Shown here in pieces: positions 5,821 through 24,369 of a stretch of DNA of 42,229 nt. Origin of the DNA: Candidatus Omnitrophota bacterium (GTDB taxonomy: Bacteria > Omnitrophota > Gorgyraeia > JAHIPI01); contig JADHVZ010000015.1 in NCBI GenBank assembly GCA_016783745.1, positions 1 to 42,229 of the forward strand. The letters run 5' to 3'. Both the position numbers and the translations under genes were made by a program. Under the pieces are notes generated by a model that was not told where the DNA came from, searched no databases, and saw only the letters and a program-made list of their open reading frames with translations. The stretch's first letter is position 1. Each line of letters begins with the position of its first letter.

Positions 5821-8800
5821 ATGAAATCACTAAACAGGTTTATTGCCATAATAGGCGTTTCGCTAATAGCCGTATTTTCCGCGCTCAATTGCGTAAATGC
5901 TGCCACTGACATGATCGACAATTATAATGACAGCGATACCTTCAATAACACACTCGGTTATCCGACCTACACGATCCCTTCAGATACTACTGAGACCGAT
6001 CCATATCTCTTTGAGAACTACGATGACGGTCTTCTTTACCCTAATTATCGGGGTTGGTGGGAGGGATCAGCCGGTATTTCACCTCACGCCGAAGTGGCGA
6101 GCCCTACATACAACGGAACCAACGTGCGGCTCTTTACCTGGAGTACCGACACAGCATATTATGCATCAAACCTTTCAAACAGTGGTACGGTAAATCTTTC
6201 CGACAAGACCGCTATTCTATTCGCGATCAAAGGCGCTGCCGGAGGAGAGGACGTCACTATCCGCCTGCAGGATATGAGCAATTATTCGGAAATAGATATT
6301 ACCGGCATTACCACTGACTGGCAGGTTATGCGTGTCTTTTTAAGCGGATTTGGTGGTGTTGACCTTTCGGCATTGAGGGCTGTCGGATTTCAATTTGACG
6401 GTGCCGGCACTGTGTATGTAGATGAGATTAGATTCAGTGTTGTAGCGGTTCCGGAGATACGGCTCCATAATTACAGCCGATGGGAAGTAAAGCCGAATAA
6501 GGCTAGGAAGATAACCTTTGCTGCGCCCACAACGCCGCCGGGGGTTTTTACTTCGGAATTGGCACCCGCCGCAAGTTATTATGATGCGGGCGCATACAGC
6601 AATCTTTCATTCCGCGTAAAGGGAGAACTGGGGGGCGAGTCTTTTGATGTCGAGCTGCAATATGGATCGGGCCCTTCATCCGCAAGCCTTCCTGTCACGG
6701 ATTATGTAACGATCAACAATCAGTGGCAGCAGGTAAATATACCTCTTTCCGATTTTTCAGGACTGAGTACATCGCAGCTTGTCTCTCTGCGCCTTGAATT
6801 TGATTCATTCTTTATCTCTAACGGCGATATTGTCTACATCGATAATGTACAGTTTTCAGATGGATCAGCTAAACCCCAGAGTACGGGAGATGTGCGGGTG
6901 GACTATGCGAACAACACGTTGCAGGTGAGAGATGGCGTCGTATATAGGGACTATATAGTAAAGGGCCTCGGATACCAGGCGATTCCCGTCGGACAGGATG
7001 TCCTCTATTTCCTGGAAGACAGATTAAGTTGGCCTGCTGTTCCCGGGGAGCCAAAGACCCGCGGAGAGCTGCTTGCCGAATTGTGCGACCGCAATTTTCC
7101 CATGCTGAGGCTTATGGGAGCCAATACCATCCGCACGTGGGGCGATCCATCCACCGTGTTTATGCAGAAAGCGGCAGAACACGGCCTTAGGGTGATGGTG
7201 TCATTCTATATCAATAAGGATGACAGTTTTGTGCCCGGATCAGGCGACCGCACAAGAATCGAGAACGACTTCCGCAATATGGTAATAAAATACCGTGATC
7301 ACGACTGGGGAGCCTATAGCGACCCGACGCTGACATGGATACTCGGCAACGAAGTGAATTTCCATTTCAGCTCGTCTACTCCTGTAACAACTATTCAAAA
7401 CTACTATGATCTGCTCAATACTCTGGGTGAGATCGCCTATACGGAAGAGGGGGCGGACTACCATCCTGTGATGCCGGTAAATTACGATATTTTCCACATA
7501 GGTGTCGATGAATTTGCGACTGACGATCTACAGCTCGATTATATTGATCTTTGGGGCAGTAATATATACGCTATGGAATTTGAGGACCATGCATGGCTCG
7601 GGGAAGCCGGAAGGAACATGTTCAATGTTTATAATGAAAAGAGCTCCAAGCCGTTGATAGTCACCGAGTACGGAACGGACGCGTTTTTTGCACTGGGAAC
7701 GCCTCCGGCATCCACGACTCTCGGCTATGAAGATGAGGTCACTCAGGCCGCGTGGGTGAAGAATAATTTTCTGGATATGGCCTCATATAACAGCATAGTG
7801 CTTGCGGGAACAGTTTTTGAATATGTGGATGAATGGTGGAAATCCGGAGGACTCACCGTCCACGATACTATCGGTTATTATTGGGCACCGCCGCTTGCGG
7901 GGGAGCCGCATGATCACCCTGATATGTATTCGAATGAAGAGTTTTACGGTGTTATGCAGATAGCTCCCGATGGAGCATGGAGCGTGCCCGATGGCCTTGA
8001 CGATATCAAGGAGAGGCAGATCTTTACTACGCTTCTTGAGATATACCGCGGTGATGAAGCGATATGGCTGGAGGAGTATTCGGTGCGTGACCATGAAGTG
8101 GGAATAAATAACGACGGTTACTTCAACCCGGATGAGACCGTCTATATCAAGATCAAATTGAAGAATCGCTCGGCGAGCGATTTTGATGTAACGGCGCGGT
8201 TGAAATTTTTCAATCCGGATCCCCTCTATACCGATCCATACGTATTTATTCAGCCGTATGATACGGGCGCAGCCGGCGAGATCGACTTTGGCACTATTAA
8301 CAGCGGCGATACGGTAGAAGGGCTTTTCAAGGTCTCCTCGGACTTCTCATTGTTCCCTGACAACCCCATCAATTACTCCGTCGATTTTAAAGTGGAGGTG
8401 ACATCCGTCGACTATTACGATCCTGATATTGTCCATGTGGGCGATTTCAGGCTTCCTGTGGATGTTGTTCCTACTATCTATACATCTATAGATGAACGCA
8501 ACATCGGGGTATCCGCGGTTAATTCAGCGAAGTTGAGCTACAGCAAGAACGGTTACGTCTATATGGCGTGGGAAGAAGAGAGTTTGGGCACAAAAGAGAT
8601 ATATTTCGCGAGTTCAAATGATTTCGGGCAGACCTGGGGCACGCCGAAGCGCGTCAATGAAAATACCGGTTTTGATGCGGAAAATCCGCAGATCACATGC
8701 GATGATTCGGGCAGGGTGTATATTGTCTGGGAAGATGCGCGTAACGGCGGTAAAAGCATCTATATGAATCGTACGATAGATCACGGCCAGACATGGTTTC

Positions 8801-11800
8801 CCGCTGATGTTGAGATAGACCGCTCAACGGGAGTGACCACTGCCGAAAACTCCACAGTGTTTGCTGATCGCAGCGGGTACATATATGTAACATGGCAGGA
8901 AGACAGGACTACCGCCGGGAACCCTGATATCTATTTCAACTATTCAACTAACTTCGGTTATTCATGGCAGCAGAGCGATATTTGTATAAGCGACAGCCCG
9001 GGGTCGTATGATTTAACGGATCCTATGCTTACCGCGGATGATGAGGGAAGAATATACATCGCGTGGACTAAGGATGAGGGGAGCGCCTCGTATACCTATA
9101 TTAATACCTCTAATGATTTCGGCGCTACGTGGTCGGTTGAGGATCAGATCGACCTCTCTTTTGGATCCTCGACCAGGCCGCACGATATATCATGTAACGG
9201 CGATGGCAGAGTCTTTGCGATATTCGGTGATGATGCTAAAGATATCTATTTCAGCACCGGGACTATGGAGACTGACGCGAACATCTCGTGGCAATATTAC
9301 GGAGGAGACCGTTATATGCTGGTCAATACATCGGGTGAGCCGTTGACGCGGACCCTCCGGGATGTCGCTATCTCAAGCGACAATACGGGAAAGGTTTATA
9401 TCGCGTGGAGCGGCAAGGCATCCGGTTCGTCACTTTCCAATATATATTTTATCCGTTCCACCAATGACGGTATTGATAGCTGGGGCGATTTTGCGCAGTT
9501 AAATGCCGATGCTATTGTCGGAGAGTACAATATCCGGCCGTCGCTCACCTCGGATTATCACGGAGGTGTATATGTGGCATGGCTTTCCAACCGCAGTTTT
9601 GGTACAGCGACTATTGGCGGAGACGGACAGACGCTTACCGGAACAGGCTGGGACATCTATTACGAATTCAGCATGGACTTTGGACAGAATTGGAATACGG
9701 CGGGTCAGGAGCCGACCACAGGGCTGCTTATTCACTATGACTTTGAGGATGATTTTTTATCGGCAGGAGAGGTGCTGGACCAATCCGGTAACGGCCACAA
9801 TATTACAGTGGTGAATCCGGCGAGCGTACCTGCGGAAAGCCAGATCAAGCGCGTAAATGGCATAAAAGGATACGGTATAGAATTTTCAGGTGATAACAGG
9901 ACATTCCTGCGCAAAGATACTTCACCGGTCAATCCTACCGCAGGCTTGGAAGGCATGACCATCTCCCTGTGGTTCAAGACGCCAGATCCGACAAGAAATA
10001 TTAAGCTTTTGAGCGCGGCATGGTGGATCGGCGGGCCTGACGCGTCAGGATGGAATTTCGGAACGCATTATCCCGAGATGTGGGCGGATGGCAGCAGGGG
10101 CACCTTGCGCGGTGAGCTTGAGTGGTATGACGTAGCGAGGTTTTTTACTCCGGGCGCATGGAATCATGCGGTGTTGACATGGGATAAGACGGGCCAGATA
10201 CGTGAATATATTAACGCGCGCCTCGTCTATCAGTGGGATGTGTCAAAGCCGAATAAAGACGTGGGTTCGGGCGCACGCCTTATGGTCGGCGGATGGAGTT
10301 GGCGCTACCCCCCAGACCCGGTCACTACGTACACAGATTTTACTATGGTGGGGCCGATGGACGAGATACGCATATATGACCGCGAGTTAAGCGTGGAAGA
10401 GGTGTATAAGTTGTATTTAAGTTCCGCTGAGGATTTCAGGCTGAATCAGAACAGCGATCCGCAGCTCTCTAACTCACTTTTGAGTTCCATGATCTCTGAC
10501 CAGGCGGGGAAGCTGAGTCTGGCCTGGCTGGATGACAGGGCGGCTTCCGGCGACCATGATCTCTACTTCAGGCTGTTGACCATCGGGCCGCGGCTTGATC
10601 CGATTCCCGATTATCCGATTATTGGCGGAGAGACATTGACATTCCAGGTTTCAGCGACGCATCCGCAGAAGATGCCTCTTGCATTGAGCATAGACCTGGA
10701 TAATCTTACGGAGGCTCAAAAGGCGACTATAGCCGATGCGACTTTGACCCAGGAATTCGATTCCGAAACAGGTAAGACTACAGGGACATTTGAGTGGACT
10801 CCGCCGCCTGACGTCGACGACGATTTTCCGTTGAGGTTTGTCGCTACAGATGTGGTAAGCGGACGGACTGTATCTGAAGGAATGAGTGTCCAGGTCAATG
10901 AACACGTACTTTTTGTTGATGACTATAATGATGATGATCCGGCGCTCAATGTGCCCGGATTCCCTTCAAGGGCAAATGAGGATGTGGTAGCGTTTGAAGA
11001 GGTCACCGGGCCTGTTTTTGACGGCACAAAGGTCCTCAGGCTTCAGTATTCAAGTACGGACGGAGAAGAAGACTATTACGAAACTTTGCTGTGGGACGAA
11101 CTTGACGGCAGCGTCTTTGCCGACGTGAGAGAATATAACGGCATCAACTTTCTTGTACGGGGTGCGGCCGGCGAAGAGACATTCAGAATCGATCTGCTCC
11201 TCAATATGTCGAAGAACAAGAAGAGCAAGAAGGGCGAGAAGGGCAAGAAGGGCGAGAAGGGGAGTAGTGTACAGACAATAACTTACGAAGCCTCTTCAGT
11301 AGAGTCTTCCGATTATGCTACTGTGCCGAATGACTCGTGGCAGATCATAAAAATCCGCCTCAACGAATTTCCGGGGGCAAAGCTGAAGAATATACTCGGA
11401 ATACGTTTTGTATTCCACGGTGAAGGGACTATATACATTGAAAATCTGAAGTTTATGGAGGAGCCCGACGAAGGTGAGTTCGACCCCACCTTCATTGAGA
11501 AGTCGAGGCGGACATTTGGCGGCATGGATGTTATCACGGCCAGGGATATTACCCCCGAACCGGAAAACGGCCTTGTCGCAAGGATACAGACGCCGTATGA
11601 GGACAGCCGCGTAAGGGCACACGTCCCTGTCTTCGGCGTTGCATACGGAGAGGATTTCAAAGAATACATGGTTGAATACGGTAAAGGCATGAATCCGAAT
11701 GAGTGGATTACGATCGCTCATTCCACGCAACCGCAGATGAAGATGGTTCCCAATGTCGATAGGGGATTCGGCGAAGGAAAAACCGTCCATGGAAACCTGG

Positions 11801-14109
11801 CGACCTGGGATACGGGGCTGCAGAACTACTATTACGGTGATGACTTCCCGCCGGATCATCCGGTGGACTTGAACGGTGTCTATACAGTACGCCTCGTAGT
11901 CGCTAGTAATGACGGCAAGACAACCGAGGACCGCGTAACTGTAGAGGTGGGGCGCGTAATTTCGAACGTCTTCGGAGGAGTCGCTAAAGATGAGTTCGAT
12001 ACGGCCGTTCTAGAACTGCCGGAGCACGCGCTGGAAGATTCCTTCAGGGTCATGGCCCTTCAGCCGGTATTGCCGGAAGAGTTTCCGTATAGAGAAGGGC
12101 AGCGGCTTGTAGGCGCTGTCTATGAGATGAGGCCTCCGGGTGAGGTTTTCACGCGCGATGCCACATTGAGCATAAAGCTTCCGGAAAATATTTCTGGATT
12201 GAGCGCTAAAGACCTCGGGATCTATGCATTTAACATAAGCTCCGGTGAATGGGAGAGATTTCCGGGGCAATTTGACGCGGAACATAATGTAATAAAGAGC
12301 GGTATGCGCGGTGTTCCCGAAGGCCGTGCCTATTTTGCCGTCCTTGAAGATACGCGCGATGAATCCTTAAAGATCGCCTCGGCGCTTTCATCGTCCGGCT
12401 GGCAGAGAGAAAATAACATCTGCGAAGCGCGGGATCCGGAAGAAGGTGTGTTTCTTGCGTGCGGTTTTGAGGGTGAGAGCGCAGGGGCATGGATGAACCG
12501 CAACGGCGCTTCAGGCACCCGGCTGATAATAGATAATAGGGATTCGTTATTCAACAATAAGGCACTTACCCTTACAAATATGAATACCGGCGGAACTTTT
12601 GCGAGTACTATTACGGATAGGCCGTTTGACGCGGTAATTTACCCGACGGTCTCTTTTGAATATAAGGTGCCTAAAAATGTCAAGATGAACATTCTGGTCA
12701 AGATGGACGGTAAGTGGTATGATATCGAATTTAGCGATGACCCGAAGCTGTACAGGAACATAAATATCGAGAAGATCGGCAGCATAGCCGGTGTCAGGGC
12801 CGATAACAGATGGCATCGGGCGACATTCGATCTTTACGGGATGTTGAGCTCACATCCTCCGTTACGGGGGCGCGGCCGGTTTGTTATTGAAGAGATGGTG
12901 ATGGCTGACTGGAATGAGGCAGGATTCATGAAGCTTGTTCCGGGCTCAAATGCGAAGGGCGCATCCTATTCGATCGATAATTTTGTCATAAGAGATAAGA
13001 TGCCGTCGGTCTGGGCGCGTCTTATGAAAAACGCTGAGAGGCTCGCTGCCGGGATAAAGAAGCGGTCAGAAGTCCCCGCCGCATATGCGAGAGCGACTAC
13101 ATTGGAAGAATTCCTTATAGTTGACCGGTACGGCCTTACTCCGGACCGCATAAAGCTTTCCGATAAAGAAGGGGTGTTTATCAAGGAGAAGTCGCAGGCG
13201 ATGATAGAGGCGTGTCTGGTTATGAGCGGGGAGCGGGGATATTGCCTCAAAATCGACTATGATCTCAGATCTGAACCTGCGGGTTACGCGGGATATTACA
13301 GGCTTCTGGAAGGCCTCGACTTGAGCCAATATCGCACTCTCATTTTCTGGATAAGAGGGGAAGCCGGAAAAGAGATCACGCGCGTCGGACTGAAAAACAA
13401 GTTGGGTCAGGAGTCAAAGATAAATGTAGGATCATTCCTGGATGACGGCATAACAACCGCTTGGCAGAAGGTCTCAATACCCCTTACCATGTTCAAGGAT
13501 ACAGAAGACCTTTCTTCTATGGATAACATCAGTTTTCATTTTGATGAAAGAAGCGGAAGCGGTAAAGGTACTATCCGCATAGATGATATCGGCTTTACGA
13601 GCGATATTGTGCCTGTAGTAGCGGTAAACTGTTCCGACGGTACCGGAAAGACAAGCTGGGGTAAAGATTACTGGACTTTCAATACGAAGACTTCACATAT
13701 ATACGCGGAAAAAGATTCTTTCGGGTGCCTTATACAATATCAGGGCATCGAGAGCCGCAAAGAGAATATCTCCTGGGCAGGATGGGGGATCGATCTTGGC
13801 GGGCTCGATCTTACGGGATATGAGGCGCTTTCACTGCGCGTAAAGCGGATCCACGGAGTGGAGCGGCCGAATATCTATCTCAATGACGGCAATAAAGAGA
13901 GGTATGTCGATCTCGAAAAGTATGTTGCGGGGACAGATTGGGAGACTGCCGTTATCCTGTTAAGGGCCTTCGCTGATAAAGGCCTCAATTTGAAGAATCT
14001 GGAAAAGTTGACTGTTGTATTTGAATGGGAAAAGATGGAAGGGGCGCTTTATGTCGACGACATCGAGTTTATCCCCTTTAATTATACAGAAGAGAAAACG
14101 GTCCGATAA
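5821..14109 (+). CDS. Giant secreted glycoside hydrolase with CBM-like, BNR propeller and LamG domains
   Basis: 2762 residues with a signal peptide (about 1-27). In order: two CBM11/galactose-binding-like jelly rolls (about 30-350); a TIM-barrel hydrolase/transglycosidase (about 370-745) resembling GH2/GH72 types, with acid/base Glu511 in LGNEVNFHF and nucleophile Glu616 in VTEYGTDAF; a CARDB-like linker; a sialidase-type propeller with Asp-box repeats such as SNDFGQTWG and SNDFGATW (about 880-1290); a LamG/concanavalin domain (about 1300-1530); an Ig-like segment; and more jelly rolls to the C-terminus. The motif DNYNDSD...GYP at the N-terminus recurs at about 1700. A Lys/Gly insert, KNKKSKKGEKGKKGEKG, interrupts one jelly roll near 1798. 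Stop and next ATG are one base apart, tying it to the GT2 synthase. Probable role: trimming, transglycosylating or anchoring the glucan made by its partner. Substrate is inference. Confidence 0.82.
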   Translation: MKSLNRFIAIIGVSLIAVFSALNCVNAATDMIDNYNDSDTFNNTLGYPTYTIPSDTTETDPYLFENYDDGLLYPNYRGWWEGSAGISPHAEVASPTYNGTNVRLFTWSTDTAYYASNLSNSGTVNLSDKTAILFAIKGAAGGEDVTIRLQDMSNYSEIDITGITTDWQVMRVFLSGFGGVDLSALRAVGFQFDGAGTVYVDEIRFSVVAVPEIRLHNYSRWEVKPNKARKITFAAPTTPPGVFTSELAPAASYYDAGAYSNLSFRVKGELGGESFDVELQYGSGPSSASLPVTDYVTINNQWQQVNIPLSDFSGLSTSQLVSLRLEFDSFFISNGDIVYIDNVQFSDGSAKPQSTGDVRVDYANNTLQVRDGVVYRDYIVKGLGYQAIPVGQDVLYFLEDRLSWPAVPGEPKTRGELLAELCDRNFPMLRLMGANTIRTWGDPSTVFMQKAAEHGLRVMVSFYINKDDSFVPGSGDRTRIENDFRNMVIKYRDHDWGAYSDPTLTWILGNEVNFHFSSSTPVTTIQNYYDLLNTLGEIAYTEEGADYHPVMPVNYDIFHIGVDEFATDDLQLDYIDLWGSNIYAMEFEDHAWLGEAGRNMFNVYNEKSSKPLIVTEYGTDAFFALGTPPASTTLGYEDEVTQAAWVKNNFLDMASYNSIVLAGTVFEYVDEWWKSGGLTVHDTIGYYWAPPLAGEPHDHPDMYSNEEFYGVMQIAPDGAWSVPDGLDDIKERQIFTTLLEIYRGDEAIWLEEYSVRDHEVGINNDGYFNPDETVYIKIKLKNRSASDFDVTARLKFFNPDPLYTDPYVFIQPYDTGAAGEIDFGTINSGDTVEGLFKVSSDFSLFPDNPINYSVDFKVEVTSVDYYDPDIVHVGDFRLPVDVVPTIYTSIDERNIGVSAVNSAKLSYSKNGYVYMAWEEESLGTKEIYFASSNDFGQTWGTPKRVNENTGFDAENPQITCDDSGRVYIVWEDARNGGKSIYMNRTIDHGQTWFPADVEIDRSTGVTTAENSTVFADRSGYIYVTWQEDRTTAGNPDIYFNYSTNFGYSWQQSDICISDSPGSYDLTDPMLTADDEGRIYIAWTKDEGSASYTYINTSNDFGATWSVEDQIDLSFGSSTRPHDISCNGDGRVFAIFGDDAKDIYFSTGTMETDANISWQYYGGDRYMLVNTSGEPLTRTLRDVAISSDNTGKVYIAWSGKASGSSLSNIYFIRSTNDGIDSWGDFAQLNADAIVGEYNIRPSLTSDYHGGVYVAWLSNRSFGTATIGGDGQTLTGTGWDIYYEFSMDFGQNWNTAGQEPTTGLLIHYDFEDDFLSAGEVLDQSGNGHNITVVNPASVPAESQIKRVNGIKGYGIEFSGDNRTFLRKDTSPVNPTAGLEGMTISLWFKTPDPTRNIKLLSAAWWIGGPDASGWNFGTHYPEMWADGSRGTLRGELEWYDVARFFTPGAWNHAVLTWDKTGQIREYINARLVYQWDVSKPNKDVGSGARLMVGGWSWRYPPDPVTTYTDFTMVGPMDEIRIYDRELSVEEVYKLYLSSAEDFRLNQNSDPQLSNSLLSSMISDQAGKLSLAWLDDRAASGDHDLYFRLLTIGPRLDPIPDYPIIGGETLTFQVSATHPQKMPLALSIDLDNLTEAQKATIADATLTQEFDSETGKTTGTFEWTPPPDVDDDFPLRFVATDVVSGRTVSEGMSVQVNEHVLFVDDYNDDDPALNVPGFPSRANEDVVAFEEVTGPVFDGTKVLRLQYSSTDGEEDYYETLLWDELDGSVFADVREYNGINFLVRGAAGEETFRIDLLLNMSKNKKSKKGEKGKKGEKGSSVQTITYEASSVESSDYATVPNDSWQIIKIRLNEFPGAKLKNILGIRFVFHGEGTIYIENLKFMEEPDEGEFDPTFIEKSRRTFGGMDVITARDITPEPENGLVARIQTPYEDSRVRAHVPVFGVAYGEDFKEYMVEYGKGMNPNEWITIAHSTQPQMKMVPNVDRGFGEGKTVHGNLATWDTGLQNYYYGDDFPPDHPVDLNGVYTVRLVVASNDGKTTEDRVTVEVGRVISNVFGGVAKDEFDTAVLELPEHALEDSFRVMALQPVLPEEFPYREGQRLVGAVYEMRPPGEVFTRDATLSIKLPENISGLSAKDLGIYAFNISSGEWERFPGQFDAEHNVIKSGMRGVPEGRAYFAVLEDTRDESLKIASALSSSGWQRENNICEARDPEEGVFLACGFEGESAGAWMNRNGASGTRLIIDNRDSLFNNKALTLTNMNTGGTFASTITDRPFDAVIYPTVSFEYKVPKNVKMNILVKMDGKWYDIEFSDDPKLYRNINIEKIGSIAGVRADNRWHRATFDLYGMLSSHPPLRGRGRFVIEEMVMADWNEAGFMKLVPGSNAKGASYSIDNFVIRDKMPSVWARLMKNAERLAAGIKKRSEVPAAYARATTLEEFLIVDRYGLTPDRIKLSDKEGVFIKEKSQAMIEACLVMSGERGYCLKIDYDLRSEPAGYAGYYRLLEGLDLSQYRTLIFWIRGEAGKEITRVGLKNKLGQESKINVGSFLDDGITTAWQKVSIPLTMFKDTEDLSSMDNISFHFDERSGSGKGTIRIDDIGFTSDIVPVVAVNCSDGTGKTSWGKDYWTFNTKTSHIYAEKDSFGCLIQYQGIESRKENISWAGWGIDLGGLDLTGYEALSLRVKRIHGVERPNIYLNDGNKERYVDLEKYVAGTDWETAVILLRAFADKGLNLKNLEKLTVVFEWEKMEGALYVDDIEFIPFNYTEEKTVR

Positions 14110-15948: not shown

Positions 15949-16215
15949 ATGACACATAGACATTTAATTGATGACCAGGCGATTGAAAAGATAAAAAAGC
16001 AGGGATGCTGTTTGGGTAAGTATAGAGTTTTTCTTACTGATGGTTACTATTGTTTTCTAGAGGGTATATTTAATTGTGCTCATCAAGATAGAAGATATGT
16101 CAAAAGCATGAATGGGCATATGCTTGTATGTAAAACGAATAAACAGTTTCCTTGCGAACAGTGTGATGTCTATGCAAAATCAGAGACTATGTTAGTAGAA
16201 GATGCCCATGTATGA
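15949..16215 (+). CDS. Cys-rich small protein upstream of rex, unknown
   Basis: 88 residues, no family recognised. Seven cysteines at 20, 21, 35, 43, 61, 69 and 72, with a CEQC pair near the C-terminus and several His, suggest a metal or FeS ligand set rather than disulfides in this anaerobic, redox-control context. The stop overlaps the rex start as ATGA, so the two are translationally coupled. It is the first gene after the promoter and Rex-like operator. No strong Shine-Dalgarno precedes the ATG, so the start is uncertain. Confidence 0.55.
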   Translation: MTHRHLIDDQAIEKIKKQGCCLGKYRVFLTDGYYCFLEGIFNCAHQDRRYVKSMNGHMLVCKTNKQFPCEQCDVYAKSETMLVEDAHV

Positions 16216-16853
16216 ATAGGTCGTCAAATGAAAAAAAAGTCTCTGATGTTGTCCTGCCAAGAATCCTGCATTATCTACGGGTTATCCAGCAATTAGCAAG
16301 GTCTAATATGACAACTATTTCGTCTGAAGAGCTCTCAAAAATAGCCAATATAAGCGCCTTCCAGATAAGAAAAGATCTGGCTAATTTTGGTAAGTTCGGC
16401 CAACCGGGAACAGGATATGATGTTTCGAATCTAAAGAGGTATCTTTTAGATGTCATTGGCACAAAGGAGATGTGCAATATTGGTCTTGTCGGAGTGGGTA
16501 ATTTAGGCTCGGCCCTTCTTAATTATAAAGGTTTTGATGAAGAAGGGTTGCAATTTGTAGCTGCTTTTGATAAGGAAGAAAGCAAGATTGGAAAGCTATG
16601 CGGGAACGTAATAGTCGAGCACATTAATAATCTAAAAGAGAGCGTGCAGAAAAACAATGTCCATATTGGAATAATTGCCGTTTCAGCCAATAATGCACAG
16701 ATGGTTGCAGATAAATTAATTGAAGCTGGGATTTTTTCCATTTTGAATTTTGCACCCACAATAGTATCGACTCCTAAGGAGATTACTGTGCGTGATGTAG
16801 ATTTATCAAATGAGTTAAAGGCACTACGGTATTTTACTGCTGTAAATAAATAG
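16212..16853 (+). CDS. rex: Redox-sensing transcriptional repressor Rex
   Basis: 213 residues with both Rex domains. An N-terminal winged helix (LPRILHYLRVIQQL, ISAFQIRKDLANFGKFGQPG) is followed by a Rossmann NAD(H) domain with GVGNLGSAL and the C-terminal domain-swap helix (VDLSNELKALRYF). Rex senses the NADH/NAD+ ratio and represses fermentation and redox-balancing genes when NAD+ is high. Its position ahead of focA and the formate dehydrogenase genes implies direct control of this operon, and Rex-like palindromes occur upstream (15872) and between rex and focA (16872). Confidence 0.95.
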   Translation: MNRSSNEKKVSDVVLPRILHYLRVIQQLARSNMTTISSEELSKIANISAFQIRKDLANFGKFGQPGTGYDVSNLKRYLLDVIGTKEMCNIGLVGVGNLGSALLNYKGFDEEGLQFVAAFDKEESKIGKLCGNVIVEHINNLKESVQKNNVHIGIIAVSANNAQMVADKLIEAGIFSILNFAPTIVSTPKEITVRDVDLSNELKALRYFTAVNK

Positions 16854-16871
16854 TTTTTTTTGGGTTGAATG

Positions 16872-16885
16872 GTGACAAATTTCAC
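16872..16885. promoter_or_regulatory. Second candidate Rex site ahead of focA
   Basis: GTGACAAATTTCAC, with GTGA and TCAC half-sites six bases apart, the Rex spacing. It lies in the 62-base rex-focA gap. No good -10/-35 is evident, so this is weaker than the first site. Confidence 0.35.
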
Positions 16886-16915
16886 GAGGTTTTAACCGGG
16901 GAGGGGAGGAAAAAG

Positions 16916-17758
16916 ATGGAAAATCGGAATGTAAACGTAAATGTGGATTGCAAGACGCCCGCTACCATAGCAGACGCGCTTGCGAATAGCATCTGTGTTC
17001 AAAAGACAAATGCCTCGATCGTCAAGTTGCTTATCCTGGGATTTTTTGCAGGTGTGTATATATCCTTCGGAGCAGCAATCGCAACGTTGGTAGGGCACGA
17101 TGCGGCAAAATATGTAGGTGTTGGAATAGCGAAATTGCTTATAGGTGGTGTTTTCTCTGTCGGGCTTATGTTAGTAGTTATAGCCGGCGCGGAACTTTTT
17201 ACCGGTAATAATCTTATGACGATGAGCGCATTAGATGGAAAAGTTCCTGCTCATAGAGTTCTGAATAAATGGGTCATAGTATACATTGCAAATTTTGTTG
17301 GTGCGGTATTCCTGGCGTGGTTGATGTATAGAACAAACCTGTGGAAAGGCAACGCCGGCGCAGTAGGCGCATTCGCAGTTAAGATAGCAAACGGTAAAGT
17401 CAATTTAGGATTTTCAGAAGCATTTTTTAGAGCAATATTATGTAATTGGCTGGTTTGTTTAGCGGTATGGTTAGCGATTGCCTCAAGGGAGGTTTCCGGT
17501 AAGATCCTGGCTATATTTTTCCCAATTATGACATTTGTCGCGCTTGGCTTCGAGCATTGTGTGGCAAACATGTATTTTGTACCCCTCGGTATATTTTTAA
17601 AAGGCAGCGCTTCAGCAGCCGCAACAGGCTTGGACCTAAGCAATTTAACCTGGAGTGTATTTTTAGTAAAAAATCTGATTCCAGTTACATTGGGCAATAT
17701 CGTAGGCGGAGCCGGCTTTGTTGCCAGCCTATATTGGTATGTATACGTAAAGAAATAG
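16916..17758 (+). CDS. focA: FocA/NirC-family formate channel
   Basis: 280 residues from ATG 16916, chosen because GGGAGGA lies six bases upstream; the track start at 16865 has none. Six hydrophobic segments with the FNT signatures FFAGVYISFGA, GAELFTGNN, NWLVCLAVWLA and LGFEHCVANMYF (the conserved His of the pore is in the last). FNT pentamers move formate, nitrite or hydrosulfide. Next to a formate dehydrogenase and under Rex, formate export or uptake is the sensible reading. Eleven bases separate it from the lipoyl gene. Confidence 0.93.
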   Translation: MENRNVNVNVDCKTPATIADALANSICVQKTNASIVKLLILGFFAGVYISFGAAIATLVGHDAAKYVGVGIAKLLIGGVFSVGLMLVVIAGAELFTGNNLMTMSALDGKVPAHRVLNKWVIVYIANFVGAVFLAWLMYRTNLWKGNAGAVGAFAVKIANGKVNLGFSEAFFRAILCNWLVCLAVWLAIASREVSGKILAIFFPIMTFVALGFEHCVANMYFVPLGIFLKGSASAAATGLDLSNLTWSVFLVKNLIPVTLGNIVGGAGFVASLYWYVYVKK

Positions 17759-17769
17759 CAATTACGCGC

Positions 17770-18006
17770 ATGAAGATAAAAGCCCCCGACTTTATAGATA
17801 GCAGTAATTACGGAACCATTATATCCTATTTTGTAGAGGAAGGCTCCGCGGTAGAAAAGGGACAGGATCTTCTTGAGATGGAAACAGACAAAGCTCTCAT
17901 TAGGATCGGCGCGCCCGCAAGCGGTATTGTGCGCGCTATTTATAAAAGTGCCGGTTCAGATGTTAATTCCGGCGATGAATTGCTCGAGATAGAAGAAAAT
18001 CGATAA
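17770..18006 (+). CDS. Free-standing lipoyl-domain protein
   Basis: 78 residues forming a single biotinyl/lipoyl domain: GTIISYFVEEGSAVEKGQ, then LLEMETDKA with the modifiable Lys in the DKA turn, then APASGIVRAIY and GDELLEIEE. The DKA (not MKM) wording points to lipoyl rather than biotinyl attachment and to E2-type domains, not to GcvH, which is longer. No catalytic E2 domain, carboxylase, lipoate ligase or dihydrolipoamide dehydrogenase is near. ATG 17770 is used because the frame upstream lies inside focA. Why a swinging-arm carrier sits between the formate channel and the dehydrogenase is unexplained. Confidence 0.8.
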   Translation: MKIKAPDFIDSSNYGTIISYFVEEGSAVEKGQDLLEMETDKALIRIGAPASGIVRAIYKSAGSDVNSGDELLEIEENR

Positions 18007-18028: not shown

Positions 18029-18691
18029 ATGAAAAGAGTGTTTGTATTATTGACAGTGTTTGTAATAGTTTTTGTTTTGTTTCAAGCTAATCTATCGCTT
18101 GCAGATGATGTTAGAATGTTTAATTATTATCAGATAAAATACAAGATTAACGATAAATTTGACGTATTCATTCAGCCGGATATGAGGTTTAATGATGATA
18201 TAAGGGAGTTATATTATTATCACATTAGGAATGGCGTAACCTTCCATGCACTGGAAAACCTGGATTTGGGAGCCACATATAGGTTTCTCGAGAGTAAGAG
18301 CGGAAGCCAATGGCCCAATGAACACAGGTTGGAATTGGAAGCTATGCCTAAGATCACACTGGGGGATTATAAGCTTTCCTATAGAGGTCGTTTTGAATAT
18401 AGATGGCTGCAGAACGCTGCAGACAGGTGGCGCTATAGGAGTCTTGGTAAGGTAGCTTACATGGCCGAGATAGGGGATTTTGCTTTTACACCATATATAA
18501 GCAATGAGATCTTTTACGATTTTGAAATAAATAAGCTGCATATGAACCGGGCTACCCTCGGCGCGGACAAGAAGATAAACGAAAACCTATTGTTAGGGCT
18601 GTTTTATTTAAACGAAACAGCACGTGCGGGTGAAACGGATGAGTGGAATACCAGACATTACATAGGGACAAAGATAGTGGTTTCATTTTAG
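18029..18691 (+). CDS. DUF2490-like outer-membrane beta-barrel protein
   Basis: 220 residues with a signal peptide (about 1-25). The mature part is made of alternating amphipathic strands (LDLGATYRFLESKSG, YKLSYRGRFEYRWLQN, FAFTPYISNEIFYDF), ending in a C-terminal aromatic Phe, as expected of an outer-membrane barrel. EHRLELEAMP and the RGRFEYR segment fit DUF2490, a family without assigned chemistry. AAGAAGGGAGTAGG precedes the ATG. Its place between a formate channel and a formate dehydrogenase suggests a co-regulated envelope function, possibly permeation, but that is inference. Confidence 0.7.
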   Translation: MKRVFVLLTVFVIVFVLFQANLSLADDVRMFNYYQIKYKINDKFDVFIQPDMRFNDDIRELYYYHIRNGVTFHALENLDLGATYRFLESKSGSQWPNEHRLELEAMPKITLGDYKLSYRGRFEYRWLQNAADRWRYRSLGKVAYMAEIGDFAFTPYISNEIFYDFEINKLHMNRATLGADKKINENLLLGLFYLNETARAGETDEWNTRHYIGTKIVVSF

Positions 18692-18710: not shown

Positions 18711-20747
18711 ATGAAAAAGATACTGACAACTTGTATTTATTGCGGATGCGGATGCGGACTTTACCTAAATGAAGATAGAGGGCTTCTTACAGGCGCATAT
18801 CCAAGTGTTAAGCATCCTGTCTCAAAGGGGGGCTTATGCGTTAAGGGGTGGAACTGTCATGAATTTGTGAATAAAATGGATAGATTGACCCATCCCTTGA
18901 TTAAAGAGAATGGCAAATTCAGAAAGGCCACATGGAGTGAGGCCATTGAGTTGATAGCAAAGAAGTTCAAGGCAATAAGTTCTGAGAGTGGACCCGACTC
19001 ATTGGCATTCTTGAGTTCCGCGAAGACGACCAATGAAGAAAACTATCTTATGATGAAATTGGCACGGGCAGTTTTCAAGACGAACAACGTAGATCACTGC
19101 GCCAGACTTTGTCACGCATCTACCGTTGCAGGGCTTGCTGCAACCTTTGGTTCTGGGGCGATGACGAATTCTATCAATGAATTCGAAGAAGCAGATTGTT
19201 TTTTAATAACAGGTTCTGATACTACGTCTCAGCACCCCTTAATAGGCTCACGTATAATAAATTCGGTTATTGATAGAGGCGCTAAATTATTAATAGTGGA
19301 CCCAAGAAAGATCGAGCTGTCAAAATATGCTACGGTCCATGCTCAACAGAAGAACGGTACTGACGTAGCATGGATTAATGGCATGATGCACGTTATAATA
19401 AGTGAAGGCCTTGAGGACAGGGCATATATTGAGGAACGCACCGAAGGGTTTGAGGAGCTGAAGGAGCTAGTTAAAGACTATACTCCTGAATATGTGGAGC
19501 AGATCACGACTATACCTAAGAATAAGCTTATAGAGGCCGCAAGGATTTATGCAACTACGAAGAAAGCCATGCTTGTATATTCAATGGGCATTACCCAGCA
19601 CACAACGGGCGTTGACAACGTTAAATCTCTTGCAAACCTGGCGATGTTAACGGGCCACGTCGGGTTTTTATCTACGGGCGTTAACCCTTTAAGGGGCCAG
19701 AATAACGTTCAAGGCGCCTGTGACCTTGGGGCTCTGGCCAATGTCTATTCCGGTTATCAGAAGGTGACGGATGCGGACAAACGCGAGAAATTTGAAAAGG
19801 CATGGGGCGTCGAAGGACTACCGGGAAATATTGGACTTACAGTTACAGAGATTATAAGCGCGCTCGCTAATAAGAAGGTCAGGGGGCTCTATATTGTGGG
19901 AGAGAACCCTATGATAAGCGATCCCGACCAGAATCATGTGCGCGAATGCTTGGAAAAGGGAGAATTTATAGTAGTGCAGGATCTCTTTATGACAGAGACG
20001 GCTTGTTTTGCGGATGTTGTGCTTCCGGGAGCGAGTTTTGCGGAGAAAGACGGAACCTTCACCAATACTGAAAGGCGTTGTGAAAGAATACGAAAGGTTA
20101 TCGATCCTCCGGGCGAAGCAAAAGCTGACTGGGAAATTCTGTGCGATGTAGCGAGGGCATGTGGATATAAGGGCATGGATTATAAAGACCCATCCGGAAT
20201 TATGGAAGAGATTAGAGTTGTGACTCCAATATATGGCGGTATGAAATATGACAGATTGGAACCGCACGGCTTACAGTGGCCTTGCTTGGACGAAAACCAT
20301 CCAGGTACGCCATATCTGCACAAAGACAAATTCGCAAAGGGAAAAGGCTCATTTATGCCGCGACCTTACAAAGAACCTGTGGAATTTCCTGACGAAGAAT
20401 TTAATTTCATTCTTTCTACGGGTAGGGTATATTGGCACTGGCATACCAGGACTTTAACAGGCCGGACAACTACCCTGGAGAGAGAGTCGCCTGTTCCGTA
20501 TGTCGAGATCAACTCTGAGGACGCAAAAGAGCTCAGCATAAGAAATAGGGCCAGGGTTAAGGTTACCTCGAGAAGGGGGTCCATAGAGCTGGTTGCCGAT
20601 ATTTCGGATAAGGTTGTTAAAGGCTCCTGTTTTATTCCTTTTCATTTCAGGGAGGCCGCTGCTAATGTTTTGACAATAAACGCAGTTGACCCTATTGCAA
20701 AGATCCCCGAATATAAAGTATGCGCAGTAAAAGTGGAGAAACTATGA
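18711..20747 (+). CDS. fdhA: Formate dehydrogenase catalytic subunit, Cys form (W/Mo-bisPGD)
   Basis: 678 residues, the length class of E. coli FdhF. Cluster ligands C-x2-C-x3-C at 8/11/15 with GGLCVKG bind one [4Fe-4S]. The metal ligand is Cys134 in CARLCHASTVAGL, codon TGT, where many homologues have selenocysteine. The substrate-binding signature NPLRGQNNVQGACDLGAL carries the conserved Arg. A C-terminal molybdopterin-dinucleotide-binding domain follows (about 570-678). It oxidises formate or reduces CO2 with electrons from its FeS partner. It overlaps the next gene by ATGA. The tungstate importer downstream suggests tungsten as the metal. AAGGAG precedes the start. Confidence 0.95.
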   Translation: MKKILTTCIYCGCGCGLYLNEDRGLLTGAYPSVKHPVSKGGLCVKGWNCHEFVNKMDRLTHPLIKENGKFRKATWSEAIELIAKKFKAISSESGPDSLAFLSSAKTTNEENYLMMKLARAVFKTNNVDHCARLCHASTVAGLAATFGSGAMTNSINEFEEADCFLITGSDTTSQHPLIGSRIINSVIDRGAKLLIVDPRKIELSKYATVHAQQKNGTDVAWINGMMHVIISEGLEDRAYIEERTEGFEELKELVKDYTPEYVEQITTIPKNKLIEAARIYATTKKAMLVYSMGITQHTTGVDNVKSLANLAMLTGHVGFLSTGVNPLRGQNNVQGACDLGALANVYSGYQKVTDADKREKFEKAWGVEGLPGNIGLTVTEIISALANKKVRGLYIVGENPMISDPDQNHVRECLEKGEFIVVQDLFMTETACFADVVLPGASFAEKDGTFTNTERRCERIRKVIDPPGEAKADWEILCDVARACGYKGMDYKDPSGIMEEIRVVTPIYGGMKYDRLEPHGLQWPCLDENHPGTPYLHKDKFAKGKGSFMPRPYKEPVEFPDEEFNFILSTGRVYWHWHTRTLTGRTTTLERESPVPYVEINSEDAKELSIRNRARVKVTSRRGSIELVADISDKVVKGSCFIPFHFREAAANVLTINAVDPIAKIPEYKVCAVKVEKL

Positions 20748-21799
20748 AACTGAAAAAGATATTACAAAAAGATGTAGAAAAGCTTCTAGGCGAGGCCGCT
20801 AAAAAATGGCAGACATATGTTCCGTCAAAGAATGATGAGGGCGATACCCTGTTTGCGATTTTGCCAAAAGAAAAAGATGAGCTTGAAAAGGCCTTGCAGA
20901 GGGTTAACTTAAAAGATGATTGGGTTGCCATCTCCCCTAAGGAAATTTTCTTTCCACAGGTGGAGAATATGTTCAGTTTTGATAAAGAGAGGATTACCGA
21001 GGAGATTGAGACGTCTAAAAAACTGATATTCGGCATAAGGCCCTGTGATTTAAAAGGGGTTCTGTTCGCCGATGAGTTTTTTAAAAGAAATTTAGAGGAT
21101 ATATATTACTTATCCAGGATTGAGGATAGGTTAATTGTAACTATAGGCTGCAATACTCCGCCGAGAAAAGAAGCGTGTTTTTGTACATCGGCTAATACAG
21201 GCCCGTTTGCGAAAGAAGGGTTTGATCTCGAGCTCGTGGATGCAGGTAACTATTATCTTGTTGAGGTCGGGAGCGTGAAGGGTGAGGAGTTCATCAATTT
21301 ATATTCTGCCTTCTTTGAAGACGCCGGCGATGATGAAGCGGAGAAGCTGAATAGCATAGAGTCTGATGCCAAAGAAGCTATTAACGTAAAGGTGGATTTT
21401 GATAAAGCCCTGGAAATAATGAAAGGCGATAAGGATCTTACCGAAAATTATAAACGGATAGGGGAAAGGTGTATCTACTGCGGGGGCTGTGTTTATACAT
21501 GCCCGAGCTGCACCTGTTTTAACGTCTTTGACGATAAATTGGGTGACAATGGAGTTAGAAGGCGCAATTGGGACACGTGTGTATTCAGAGGTTATACGCG
21601 CGAGGCCAGCGGCCACAACCCGAGAGATGAAAAATGGACAAGAACAGCCAGACGCTACGAACATAAACTAAAGTACGATTATAGTGTCACAGGTACAAGC
21701 GGGTGCATTGCCTGCGGACGCTGCCTTTCAAGCTGTCCGGTTAATATCGGAATGTCTAAGTTTATCGAAGAGATTACGACAAATAAGAGGAATATGTGA
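20744..21799 (+). CDS. FeS electron-transfer subunit, HydB/AsrA-like
   Basis: 351 residues from ATG 20744 (GGAGAA upstream; overlaps the fdhA stop). Belongs to the family shared by archaeal sulfhydrogenase beta subunits and anaerobic sulfite reductase subunit A. The N-terminal part has FGIRPCDLKGV and CNTPPRKEACFC. Two [4Fe-4S] motif sets follow, CIYCGGCVYTCPSCTC and CIACGRCLSSCPVNI. In those complexes this subunit passes electrons between the catalytic centre and the flavin subunit. Here it should link FdhA to the following NAD(P)-type flavoprotein. Confidence 0.88.
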   Translation: MKLKKILQKDVEKLLGEAAKKWQTYVPSKNDEGDTLFAILPKEKDELEKALQRVNLKDDWVAISPKEIFFPQVENMFSFDKERITEEIETSKKLIFGIRPCDLKGVLFADEFFKRNLEDIYYLSRIEDRLIVTIGCNTPPRKEACFCTSANTGPFAKEGFDLELVDAGNYYLVEVGSVKGEEFINLYSAFFEDAGDDEAEKLNSIESDAKEAINVKVDFDKALEIMKGDKDLTENYKRIGERCIYCGGCVYTCPSCTCFNVFDDKLGDNGVRRRNWDTCVFRGYTREASGHNPRDEKWTRTARRYEHKLKYDYSVTGTSGCIACGRCLSSCPVNIGMSKFIEEITTNKRNM

Positions 21800-22638
21800 T
21801 TATGAAGAATGAATATCTTCCATATAAAGTGACAATCGCGTCTATACAAAAAGAAAGTTTCGACACAAATACATATAAGGTCGTATTTGATGATGAGAAG
21901 ACAAGAGATTCTTTCGATTATAGACAGGGGCAGTTCGCGGAGATTTCAATATTAGGAGTAGGCGAAGCCCCTATCTCCATTACCTCATCACCGTCGAGAA
22001 AAGGGTATCTGGAATTTAGCATAAGAGCGGCAGGAAGCCTTACAAATAAGATACATGAAATGAAGGTAGGTGACTCACTTTACGTAAGAGGCCCATACGG
22101 CAACTCTTTTCCTTATGAAGAGACCAAGGGAAAGAACATATATTTTATTGCAGGCGGCATAGGCCTTCCTCCGTTAAGAAGCCTTATAAATATGACGATG
22201 GACAATCGGAGCGATTTCGGCCACATTAAAATTTTATATGGCTCCAAAACACCGGATGAATTATGCTTCAAGCAGGAATTGGATGAGTGGAAGAAAGTTG
22301 AGAATACAGAAGTGTGGTTGATTGTGGATAAACCATGCGATGGATGGGGATGCAGCATAGGTGTTGTTACGGAATTGTGGAAAGATACAGATATCCATCC
22401 GAAAAATGCAGTGGCTTTTGTCTGCGGACCTCCCATAATGATTAAATTCGTAGTTCAAAAGCTGACGCAATCCGGCTTTAAAGACAAAGATATCATAATG
22501 ACGCTGGAGCGCTATATGAAGTGCGGTATAGGCAAGTGTGGGCATTGCAATGTAGGTGAGAAGTTTGTTTGCGTAGATGGGCCGGTATTTACTTACGAAG
22601 AGATAAAAAAGATCCCTTCGCGTGAAAAGGTAATTTAG
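21796..22638 (+). CDS. FAD/NAD(P)-binding oxidoreductase subunit, HydG/AsrB-like
   Basis: 280 residues. An N-terminal FAD-binding barrel has PISITSSPSR in place of RxYSxxS. The nucleotide-binding half has YFIAGGIGLPPLRSLI and VAFVCGPPIMIKF. A C-terminal [2Fe-2S] set reads MKCGIGKCGHCNVGEKFVC, as in sulfhydrogenase gamma and PyrK-like proteins. It probably reduces NAD(P)+ with formate-derived electrons, or runs in reverse. GTG 21796 overlaps the previous stop, while ATG 21802 has a more normal distance from AAGAGGA; either is possible. A hairpin terminator follows. Confidence 0.88.
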   Translation: MIMKNEYLPYKVTIASIQKESFDTNTYKVVFDDEKTRDSFDYRQGQFAEISILGVGEAPISITSSPSRKGYLEFSIRAAGSLTNKIHEMKVGDSLYVRGPYGNSFPYEETKGKNIYFIAGGIGLPPLRSLINMTMDNRSDFGHIKILYGSKTPDELCFKQELDEWKKVENTEVWLIVDKPCDGWGCSIGVVTELWKDTDIHPKNAVAFVCGPPIMIKFVVQKLTQSGFKDKDIIMTLERYMKCGIGKCGHCNVGEKFVCVDGPVFTYEEIKKIPSREKVI

Positions 22639-22695: not shown

Positions 22696-23289
22696 ATGCA
22701 AAATCTGCATAACGATAGATCAGGTATAGCTTGCGCGATATTAGCCGGCGGCCGGAACAATCGCATGGGGCAGCATAAGGCGTTTTTAGATTATCGCGGC
22801 AGGACCTTCATCGAAATTATCAGGGATAGTATGAGCGTATGGTTTGACGAGGTATTCGTTGTAACTAATAACAAGCTGCTTTTCTCAAAGTTTCCCGAAC
22901 AGGTTTTTGAAGATATCATACCGGACAAGGGGCCCTTAGCAGCTATACATACAGCCCTTACGGTAAGTACCAGGGAGCGGGTTTTCTGTGTGGCCTGTGA
23001 CATGCCCGATTGCGGCAGCTTAGCAATAGAGGAAGTTATACGCGCGAGCAAAGAAGGCAGCTTCGATTGTTTTGTTCCGAGGGGATCCCGCGGTCCGGAA
23101 CCGCTCTTTGCGATATATACGAGATCCGTGAGGGGTTTAATTGAAGAAGAGATAACGCGAGGTCAATTATCCGTATTAAGATTTCTGGAAAGATGCCGTA
23201 CCCGCTATATTGATATAACAGGATACGAAAAAGAAATTGTAAATATAAATACACCCCAGGAGTACAGACGTCATGCGCGCAAGGTCTAA
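22696..23289 (+). CDS. mobA: Molybdenum cofactor guanylyltransferase MobA
   Basis: 197 residues. ILAGGRNNRMGQHKAFLDY is the MobA nucleotide-binding loop (LAGGxSxRMGxxKA), and DKGPLAAIHTAL and ACDMPDCGSLA are also conserved. It joins GMP to molybdopterin to build the bis-guanine-dinucleotide cofactor used by FdhA. GGAAGGAG precedes the ATG. It overlaps the ModE-type gene by 17 bases. No mobB is present in the window. Confidence 0.92.
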   Translation: MQNLHNDRSGIACAILAGGRNNRMGQHKAFLDYRGRTFIEIIRDSMSVWFDEVFVVTNNKLLFSKFPEQVFEDIIPDKGPLAAIHTALTVSTRERVFCVACDMPDCGSLAIEEVIRASKEGSFDCFVPRGSRGPEPLFAIYTRSVRGLIEEEITRGQLSVLRFLERCRTRYIDITGYEKEIVNINTPQEYRRHARKV

Positions 23290-23623
23290 GATATGGATTG
23301 AGAAAAACAAGAAACTCATATTCGGAGAAGGTAAATCAGAGATATTTAAAGCCATACAGGAACATAAGTCCATCAATAAAGCCGCCAAAAGCATGGGCGT
23401 CTCATTTCGGCATGCCTGGAGTTACATCAATGAAATTGAAAAGAGGCTGGGCGTTCATTTAGTTGATCGGTCAAAAGGCGGAAAAGGCGGCGGTGGGTCA
23501 CATCTGACGGAATATGCCGTAGAACTTATGAAAAGGTTCGATAGGCTGAAAAATGAAGTCGATAAATATACTGATAAAAAAGCAAAGGAAGTATTCGGCG
23601 GATGGAAAAATATGAGATATTAA
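23273..23623 (+). CDS. ModE-type HTH regulator without TOBE domain
   Basis: 116 residues containing only the LysR-like winged helix of ModE (IFKAIQEHKSINKAAKSMGV, HAWSYINEIEKRLGVHLV, GGGGSHLTEYAVELM). The oxyanion-binding TOBE/MOP domains of full ModE are missing, so it cannot sense molybdate in the usual way. A TOBE-like domain is instead fused to the TupC ATPase nearby. It probably regulates the tungsten/molybdenum genes, as comparable short regulators do in tup loci. Overlaps fdhD by 22 bases. Confidence 0.82.
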   Translation: MRARSKIWIEKNKKLIFGEGKSEIFKAIQEHKSINKAAKSMGVSFRHAWSYINEIEKRLGVHLVDRSKGGKGGGGSHLTEYAVELMKRFDRLKNEVDKYTDKKAKEVFGGWKNMRY

Positions 23624-24369
23624 AGATCTTTCCCGAAAAGGAAGAAAAAATATTAGACGCGGTCACAAGGGAGATTCCTTTAACGGTTTATGTAAACGAT
23701 AAGGAGATAGTTACCCTTCTTGCCAGCCCGATCGATCTTACAGAGTTGGCCGTCGGTTTTCTCTTTACTTCAGGATTCATATTTAGCTATGGAGACGTAA
23801 GAAGCGCCACAGAAGACAAAGAGCGCTGGACCGTTCATTTACGACTGAAAGACGGAGATATTGGCTTGCATATGGTTTTTAAAAGACTGTTTACGTCAGG
23901 TTGCGGGAAAGGCACATTATTTTATAATGCCGTCGACCTTATGCATAGAAACAGGCGAAGGGAAGGCATAACTATTGACAGAGGGCGGGTATTTCATATG
24001 ATGCAGGATTTTCAGGCCCGTTCGGCAGGGTTTAAAGAAACAGGGGGTGTTCATAGCGCGGCACTCGCTGATAATAAAGATATCCTTGCAGTGAGAGAGG
24101 ATATAGGCCGGCATAATGCTGTTGATAAAATTCTCGGTTACGCTCTTATAAACAAAATAGAACTGAAAGATAAGATTATATTGTCTTCAGGGCGTGTATC
24201 TTCTGAGATAATATTCAAGATACAAAAAACGGATATCTCCGCGATAGTTTCGCGAAGCGCCCCGACAGACCAGGCGATAAAACACGCGCGAAGCAGCGGT
24301 ATTGCGCTGATAGGTTTTGCGAGAGGCCAAAGAATGAATGTCTATAGCTGCACAGAGAGGATAGTGTGA
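23602..24369 (+). CDS. fdhD: FdhD, sulfurtransferase for formate dehydrogenase
   Basis: 255 residues. Conserved VNDKEIVTLLASPIDLTELA, VGFLFTSGF, FTSGCGKG, ETGGVHSAAL and REDIGRHNAVDKILG. FdhD passes sulfur from a cysteine desulfurase to the Mo/W centre of formate dehydrogenase. The redox motif here is a single Cys (SGCGKG) rather than the E. coli CxxC, a variant known in other lineages. It shares a GTGA overlap with tupA. Confidence 0.94.
   Translation: MEKYEILKIFPEKEEKILDAVTREIPLTVYVNDKEIVTLLASPIDLTELAVGFLFTSGFIFSYGDVRSATEDKERWTVHLRLKDGDIGLHMVFKRLFTSGCGKGTLFYNAVDLMHRNRRREGITIDRGRVFHMMQDFQARSAGFKETGGVHSAALADNKDILAVREDIGRHNAVDKILGYALINKIELKDKIILSSGRVSSEIIFKIQKTDISAIVSRSAPTDQAIKHARSSGIALIGFARGQRMNVYSCTERIV

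Follow-up and report, generated by a model that had tools for sequence, protein, structure and literature searches.

In the usual account, lipoate serves as cofactor to five enzyme complexes, and the GcvH-like proteins LbpA and GcvH-L are the known exceptions. Both of these belong to the GcvH family and have dedicated ligases (PMC6067878, PMC4518038). LbpA, found in sHdr sulfur oxidation, is a single-domain lipoyl carrier linked to hdr-like and lplA genes (PMC6067878), while GcvH-L, encoded in the SirTM operon with LplA2, a sirtuin and a macrodomain protein, is a lone carrier outside the glycine cleavage system that has been proposed to act in redox defence (PMC4518038). Archaeal proteins consisting of a lipoyl domain alone are listed as a class in a further source (PMC3904984). 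The open-access literature that we searched, which excludes most subscription journals, did not discuss lipoyl domains in Omnitrophota, and the main text of a 2023 survey of this group (PMC10066038) does not mention lipoyl proteins.

Here we describe a free-standing lipoyl domain protein of 78 amino acids (LD), encoded at positions 17770 to 18006 on the forward strand of a 42,229-nucleotide contig from a Candidatus Omnitrophota genome (G000); the whole of this stretch is referred to as the window. The protein shares its fold, its attachment turn and its best sequence and structure matches with the lipoyl domains of E2o and E2p from 2-oxoacid dehydrogenase complexes, but it lacks their catalytic and subunit-binding domains and comes from a genome in which E1 and E2 were not found. 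Like LbpA, it is a single-domain protein outside the classical complexes, and like GcvH-L, it is a lone protein of a redox-linked operon and carries the E-x2-K-x10-G motif. In contrast to both, it is of the E2 type and is linked to formate dehydrogenase; no hdr-like genes were recognised by name among those of the window, and LplA2, sirtuin and macrodomain genes are not found near it. The single-domain proteins listed in PMC3904984 differ in being archaeal and, as listed there, in not being tied to formate dehydrogenase. By analogy, LD might work like LbpA and GcvH-L, but it is not a member of either family.

The lipoyl domain and its operon

The LD frame runs from an ATG at 17770 to a stop codon at 18004 to 18006, and a profile search matched its residues 2 to 74 to PF00364 (E = 6.5e-18, 64.8 bits against a cutoff of 22.1). 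The nearest NCBIfam profiles describe the N-terminal domain of E2 proteins of the SucB and AceF types, while the GcvH profile PF01597 scored below its cutoff (13.9 bits against 22.2, E = 0.05). The attachment turn, E38-T-D-K41-A, holds the predicted lipoyl-lysine K41, with a glutamate at K-3 and G52 at K+11, and so fits the lipoyl-attachment motif E-x2-K-x10-G (PMC4518038). The AlphaFold model (mean pLDDT of 92.1) has a flattened beta-barrel fold and resembles solved lipoyl and biotinyl domains, among them 9a4v (TM of 0.93) and 1ghj, the lipoyl domain of 2-oxoglutarate dehydrogenase (TM of 0.88). These results bear out an earlier sequence-only reading of this DNA, which had described a complete lipoyl domain with an ETDKA turn. 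A biotinyl domain was rejected, as the biotin motif E-A-M-K-M is absent and the AccB of the same genome is a separate protein with EAMKLM. A chance open reading frame or remnant was likewise rejected on the grounds of the profile match, the fold, synteny with a second genome and the dN/dS ratio (see below). Judging from these features, LD is very probably a functional E2-type lipoyl domain that is lipoylated at Lys41.

The gene lies in an operon on the forward strand, which begins with an 88-amino-acid cysteine-containing protein (15949 to 16215) that had no Pfam or NCBIfam match. It is followed by the NADH/NAD+-sensing redox repressor Rex (16212 to 16853; NF003995, 240.7 bits against a cutoff of 126), a formate/nitrite transporter, FNT (16865 to 17758; TIGR00790 above cutoff, PF01226 with 275 bits), and LD itself, which starts 11 bases after the FNT stop codon. 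Downstream are a DUF2490 outer-membrane beta-barrel-like protein (18029 to 18691; PF10677, 2e-27), the formate dehydrogenase catalytic (alpha) subunit (18711 to 20747; TIGR01591, 880.9 bits against a cutoff of 666), an iron-sulfur subunit resembling sulfhydrogenase beta or AsrA (20720 to 21799; NF040829 and TIGR02910, both below cutoff) and an FAD/NAD(P) subunit resembling sulfhydrogenase gamma or AsrB (21796 to 22638; NF006220 and TIGR02911, both below cutoff). The run continues with a MobA-like molybdenum cofactor protein (22696 to 23289, named from sequence and syntenic with G131), a ModE-like protein and the formate dehydrogenase accessory sulfurtransferase FdhD (23602 to 24369; TIGR00129, 183.7 bits against a cutoff of 140.9). 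By sequence inspection, the genes 3' of FdhD resemble a tungstate ABC transporter and molybdopterin genes. BLAST searches of the window open reading frames with LipA, LipB, LplA, GcvH, GcvT, GcvP, DLD (dihydrolipoamide dehydrogenase), E1 and E2 sequences matched LD alone, so that the earlier statement that no E2, E3, carboxylase or ligase lies nearby holds for the window.

Some other features of the region deserve mention. The 88-amino-acid protein has a 71% identical counterpart at the same place, upstream of Rex, in the genome G004. The barrel gene inside a formate dehydrogenase operon possibly encodes a formate pore. Upstream of the operon, positions 5821 to 14109 of the window encode a secreted multidomain protein of 2762 amino acids that is apparently carbohydrate active.

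Conservation of the formate-linked gene

Among 384 genomes of the same class, the best match to LD (3e-24) was found in G131, a member of a different Omnitrophota family, where the gene is located directly 3' of FNT with a gap of 9 bases. The two loci are syntenic throughout (identities of 83% for FdhA, 80% for FNT, 58% for LD and 57 to 58% for FdhD), with a DcaP-like porin (PF19577) in G131 in place of the DUF2490 barrel. Comparison of the two LD genes gave a dN of 0.35 and a dS of 2.2 (NG86) or 0.37 and 1.6 (YN00), that is, a dN/dS of about 0.16 to 0.24 with dS near saturation. LD is held under purifying selection in this slot and has not decayed. The sequence-only reading had offered a decayed remnant absent from close relatives as one outcome that would speak against a role. 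The absence was found, as three genomes of the same family have neither an FNT match nor an LD of the window type, but the decay was not, because G131 keeps the FNT-LD pair under purifying selection.

Of the 20 best-matching formate-transporter loci of the class, 18 lack an LD at this place, and only G000 and G131 had it among the 28 FNT loci inspected. At the formate loci of G130, G004 and G233, a barrel or porin gene directly follows FNT and LD is absent. A scan of 84,980 genomes with strict patterns (two of 8 residues, hence not exhaustive) returned the G131 record (JAHJBY010000036.1) as the sole orthologue; the other matches were ordinary E2, biotin-carrier-like and efflux-type proteins. 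LD is an optional part of the formate operon, since most FNT loci and some FdhD loci do without it, and its occurrence in two families suggests that the gene has been lost or transferred.

Lipoyl-related genes in the genome and the class

The gene content of G000 (1.66 Mb, 93% complete) was judged by family searches, and since it is a metagenome-assembled genome, absences are provisional. PF00364 matched AccB (the genome also has biotin carboxylase), GcvH, the window LD and a second lone LD, next to which LipB and LipA are encoded. The glycine cleavage cluster is complete (GcvT-GcvH-GcvPA-GcvPB, with an LplA-like protein), and an FTHFS (formate-THF ligase) gene has neighbours that appear FolD- and MetF-like from their sequences. 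A single DLD (G000:C41:14444-15826; TIGR01350, 499.6 bits against a cutoff of 408.8) is found on another contig than the window LD. The E2 catalytic domain PF00198 had no match in G000 and was positive in 3 of 59 relatives (the control matched in 10 of 14 genomes), which extends the orphan status claimed for LD within its formate dehydrogenase operon to the whole genome. A full E1 was not found in G000 either, its three Transket_pyr matches being of transketolase or DXS type. Within the limits of the assembly, the absence of both E1 and E2 excludes classical acyl transfer in G000.

The second lone LD of G000 (L031:9512-9742, equivalent to G000:C42:17511-17741) has counterparts in about 40 relatives. 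They belong to a cluster present in many families, with aspartate aminotransferase, an aconitase-family protein, isocitrate dehydrogenase, malate dehydrogenase, often DLD, LipB, often LipA and the LD. These class-wide LDs have the same length and motif as the window LD and share the absence of E2, but they are only about 28 to 38% identical to it, stand in a different operon and do not form a firm clade with it. In a tree of 80 columns, the pair linked to formate dehydrogenase was placed nearer to E2 domains (support of 89/74) and not firmly with the class-wide group.

The LD query matched 43 of the 59 relatives (a few matches being E2 or fused proteins), and in 31 of those 43 a LipB/LplA-family gene lies within 4.5 kb of the LD. 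In 18 genomes an LD is present while GcvH and E2 are both absent. A LipB/LplA-family gene is kept in 17 of these, compared with one of the seven genomes lacking LD, GcvH and E2 alike (Fisher p = 2.6e-4, a value that ignores the shared ancestry of the genomes). GcvP is absent from 16 of the 18 (G006 has a partial match and G030 was left out), which makes it unlikely that the class-wide LD substitutes for the H protein. LipB, LD and DLD occur without GcvH, GcvP, E2 or a full E1 in 13 nearly complete genomes, or 12 if a partial E1 match in G014 is counted. Furthermore, in G034 (L156:2226-3326) an LD is fused to the C terminus of lipoyl synthase (LipA), an arrangement that points strongly to the class-wide type being a lipoylation substrate. 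The free-standing lipoyl proteins of Omnitrophota are a wider, undescribed set of which the window LD is one branch, and the class-wide type is possibly the more important finding. Genomes with lipoate attachment genes, a lone E2-type LD and DLD, but with the usual clients missing, point to a further use of lipoate, and the copy linked to formate dehydrogenase provides a defined operon in which to find its partner.

Proposed dithiol carriage and alternative roles

The reading that we prefer, with a probability of roughly 35%, is that the window LD is a branch of the Omnitrophota lone lipoyl proteins that work without E2, as a redox carrier recycled by DLD. Lys41 would be modified either by LipB together with LipA or by the LplA-like protein; the soluble domain protein would carry a dithiol/disulfide couple, which DLD could exchange with NAD(H), and would hand it to a putative cytosolic partner. 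With Rex and FNT encoded ahead of it, its production may follow the NADH state, through presumed Rex control, as well as formate use. For the class-wide LD we favour this redox role on the grounds that, in the 12 to 13 genomes mentioned above, no recognised partner other than DLD remains. Its extension to the LD linked to formate dehydrogenase is by analogy and deserves only modest confidence, because the tree ties the two types loosely and both carriers of the formate-linked form have GcvP; what was found for the class-wide type may not hold here. Two further facts argue against it, namely that no redox partner gene lies beside the window LD, DLD itself being on another contig, and that the formate-linked form occurs in only two genomes. 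The combination of AhpD, a lipoyl domain and DLD was not found in the open-access literature searched. A still more tentative generalisation is that Omnitrophota might run LipB/LipA-made free LDs with DLD as a general dithiol carrier, with no 2-oxoacid dehydrogenase or glycine cleavage client, one branch having been recruited into formate/CO2 metabolism.

Rather unlikely, although the most probable of the alternatives, is that a duplicated or transferred LD gene landed in the operon and that its product, once lipoylated, serves as a general acceptor or donor of the lipoyl pool with no role in formate metabolism. The two carriers among so many homologous formate loci that lack the gene would fit such an origin, as would the weak ribosome-binding context of LD in the window. 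However, the same slot is kept in two families under purifying selection, and the short FNT-LD gaps in both genomes suggest cotranscription.

An extra aminomethyl or methylene carrier for a glycine cleavage system run in the reductive direction, with formate, whether imported by FNT or produced by formate dehydrogenase, passing through formate-THF ligase and FolD to glycine, appears unlikely. G000 does possess the complete glycine cleavage and FTHFS-FolD-MetF-like clusters, and G131, the sole other carrier, has GcvP too. Yet the window LD is of the E2 and not the GcvH type, G000 already has a proper GcvH, G130 and G233 combine GcvP with the same FNT family without an LD, and half of the tested genomes with the class-wide LD lack GcvP.

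It is less probable again that LD, by analogy with the LDs of Omnitrophota glycan clusters, would accept acyl groups from a 2-oxoacid enzyme that escaped recognition, such as a 2-oxoacid:ferredoxin oxidoreductase. Relatives do have lone LDs linked to E1, as well as a fusion of LD to a hexapeptide acyltransferase, but a full E1 is absent in G000, the E1-linked LDs form a tree group separate from the window LD (97/93) and the operon has no acyl enzyme. Finally, a sulfur relay to FdhD or to molybdenum cofactor sulfuration is highly improbable: FdhD is encoded 5.6 kb downstream of LD in the same gene run, but an FdhD locus without LD exists (L117), LD is not a GcvH-like LbpA, Hdr-like genes were not recognised in the window and a cysteine desulfurase was not noticed among the operon genes. 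The link to FdhD sulfuration proposed from the sequence alone is thus not supported, given the L117 locus and the rarity of LD at FNT loci (2 of 28).

The E1-linked domains of the relatives belong to clusters of a glycan type, in which E1 alpha/beta-like genes lie beside a lone LD or an LD-hexapeptide acyltransferase fusion (L154:4189-7176 in G008, L151:160-3801 in G039, L149:4375-7231 in G035 and L162:5469-6992 in G041). The last of these is an LD-hexapeptide fusion, with no E1 seen nearby. Their gene content suggests that sugars may receive lipoyl-borne acyl groups with no classical E2 involved.
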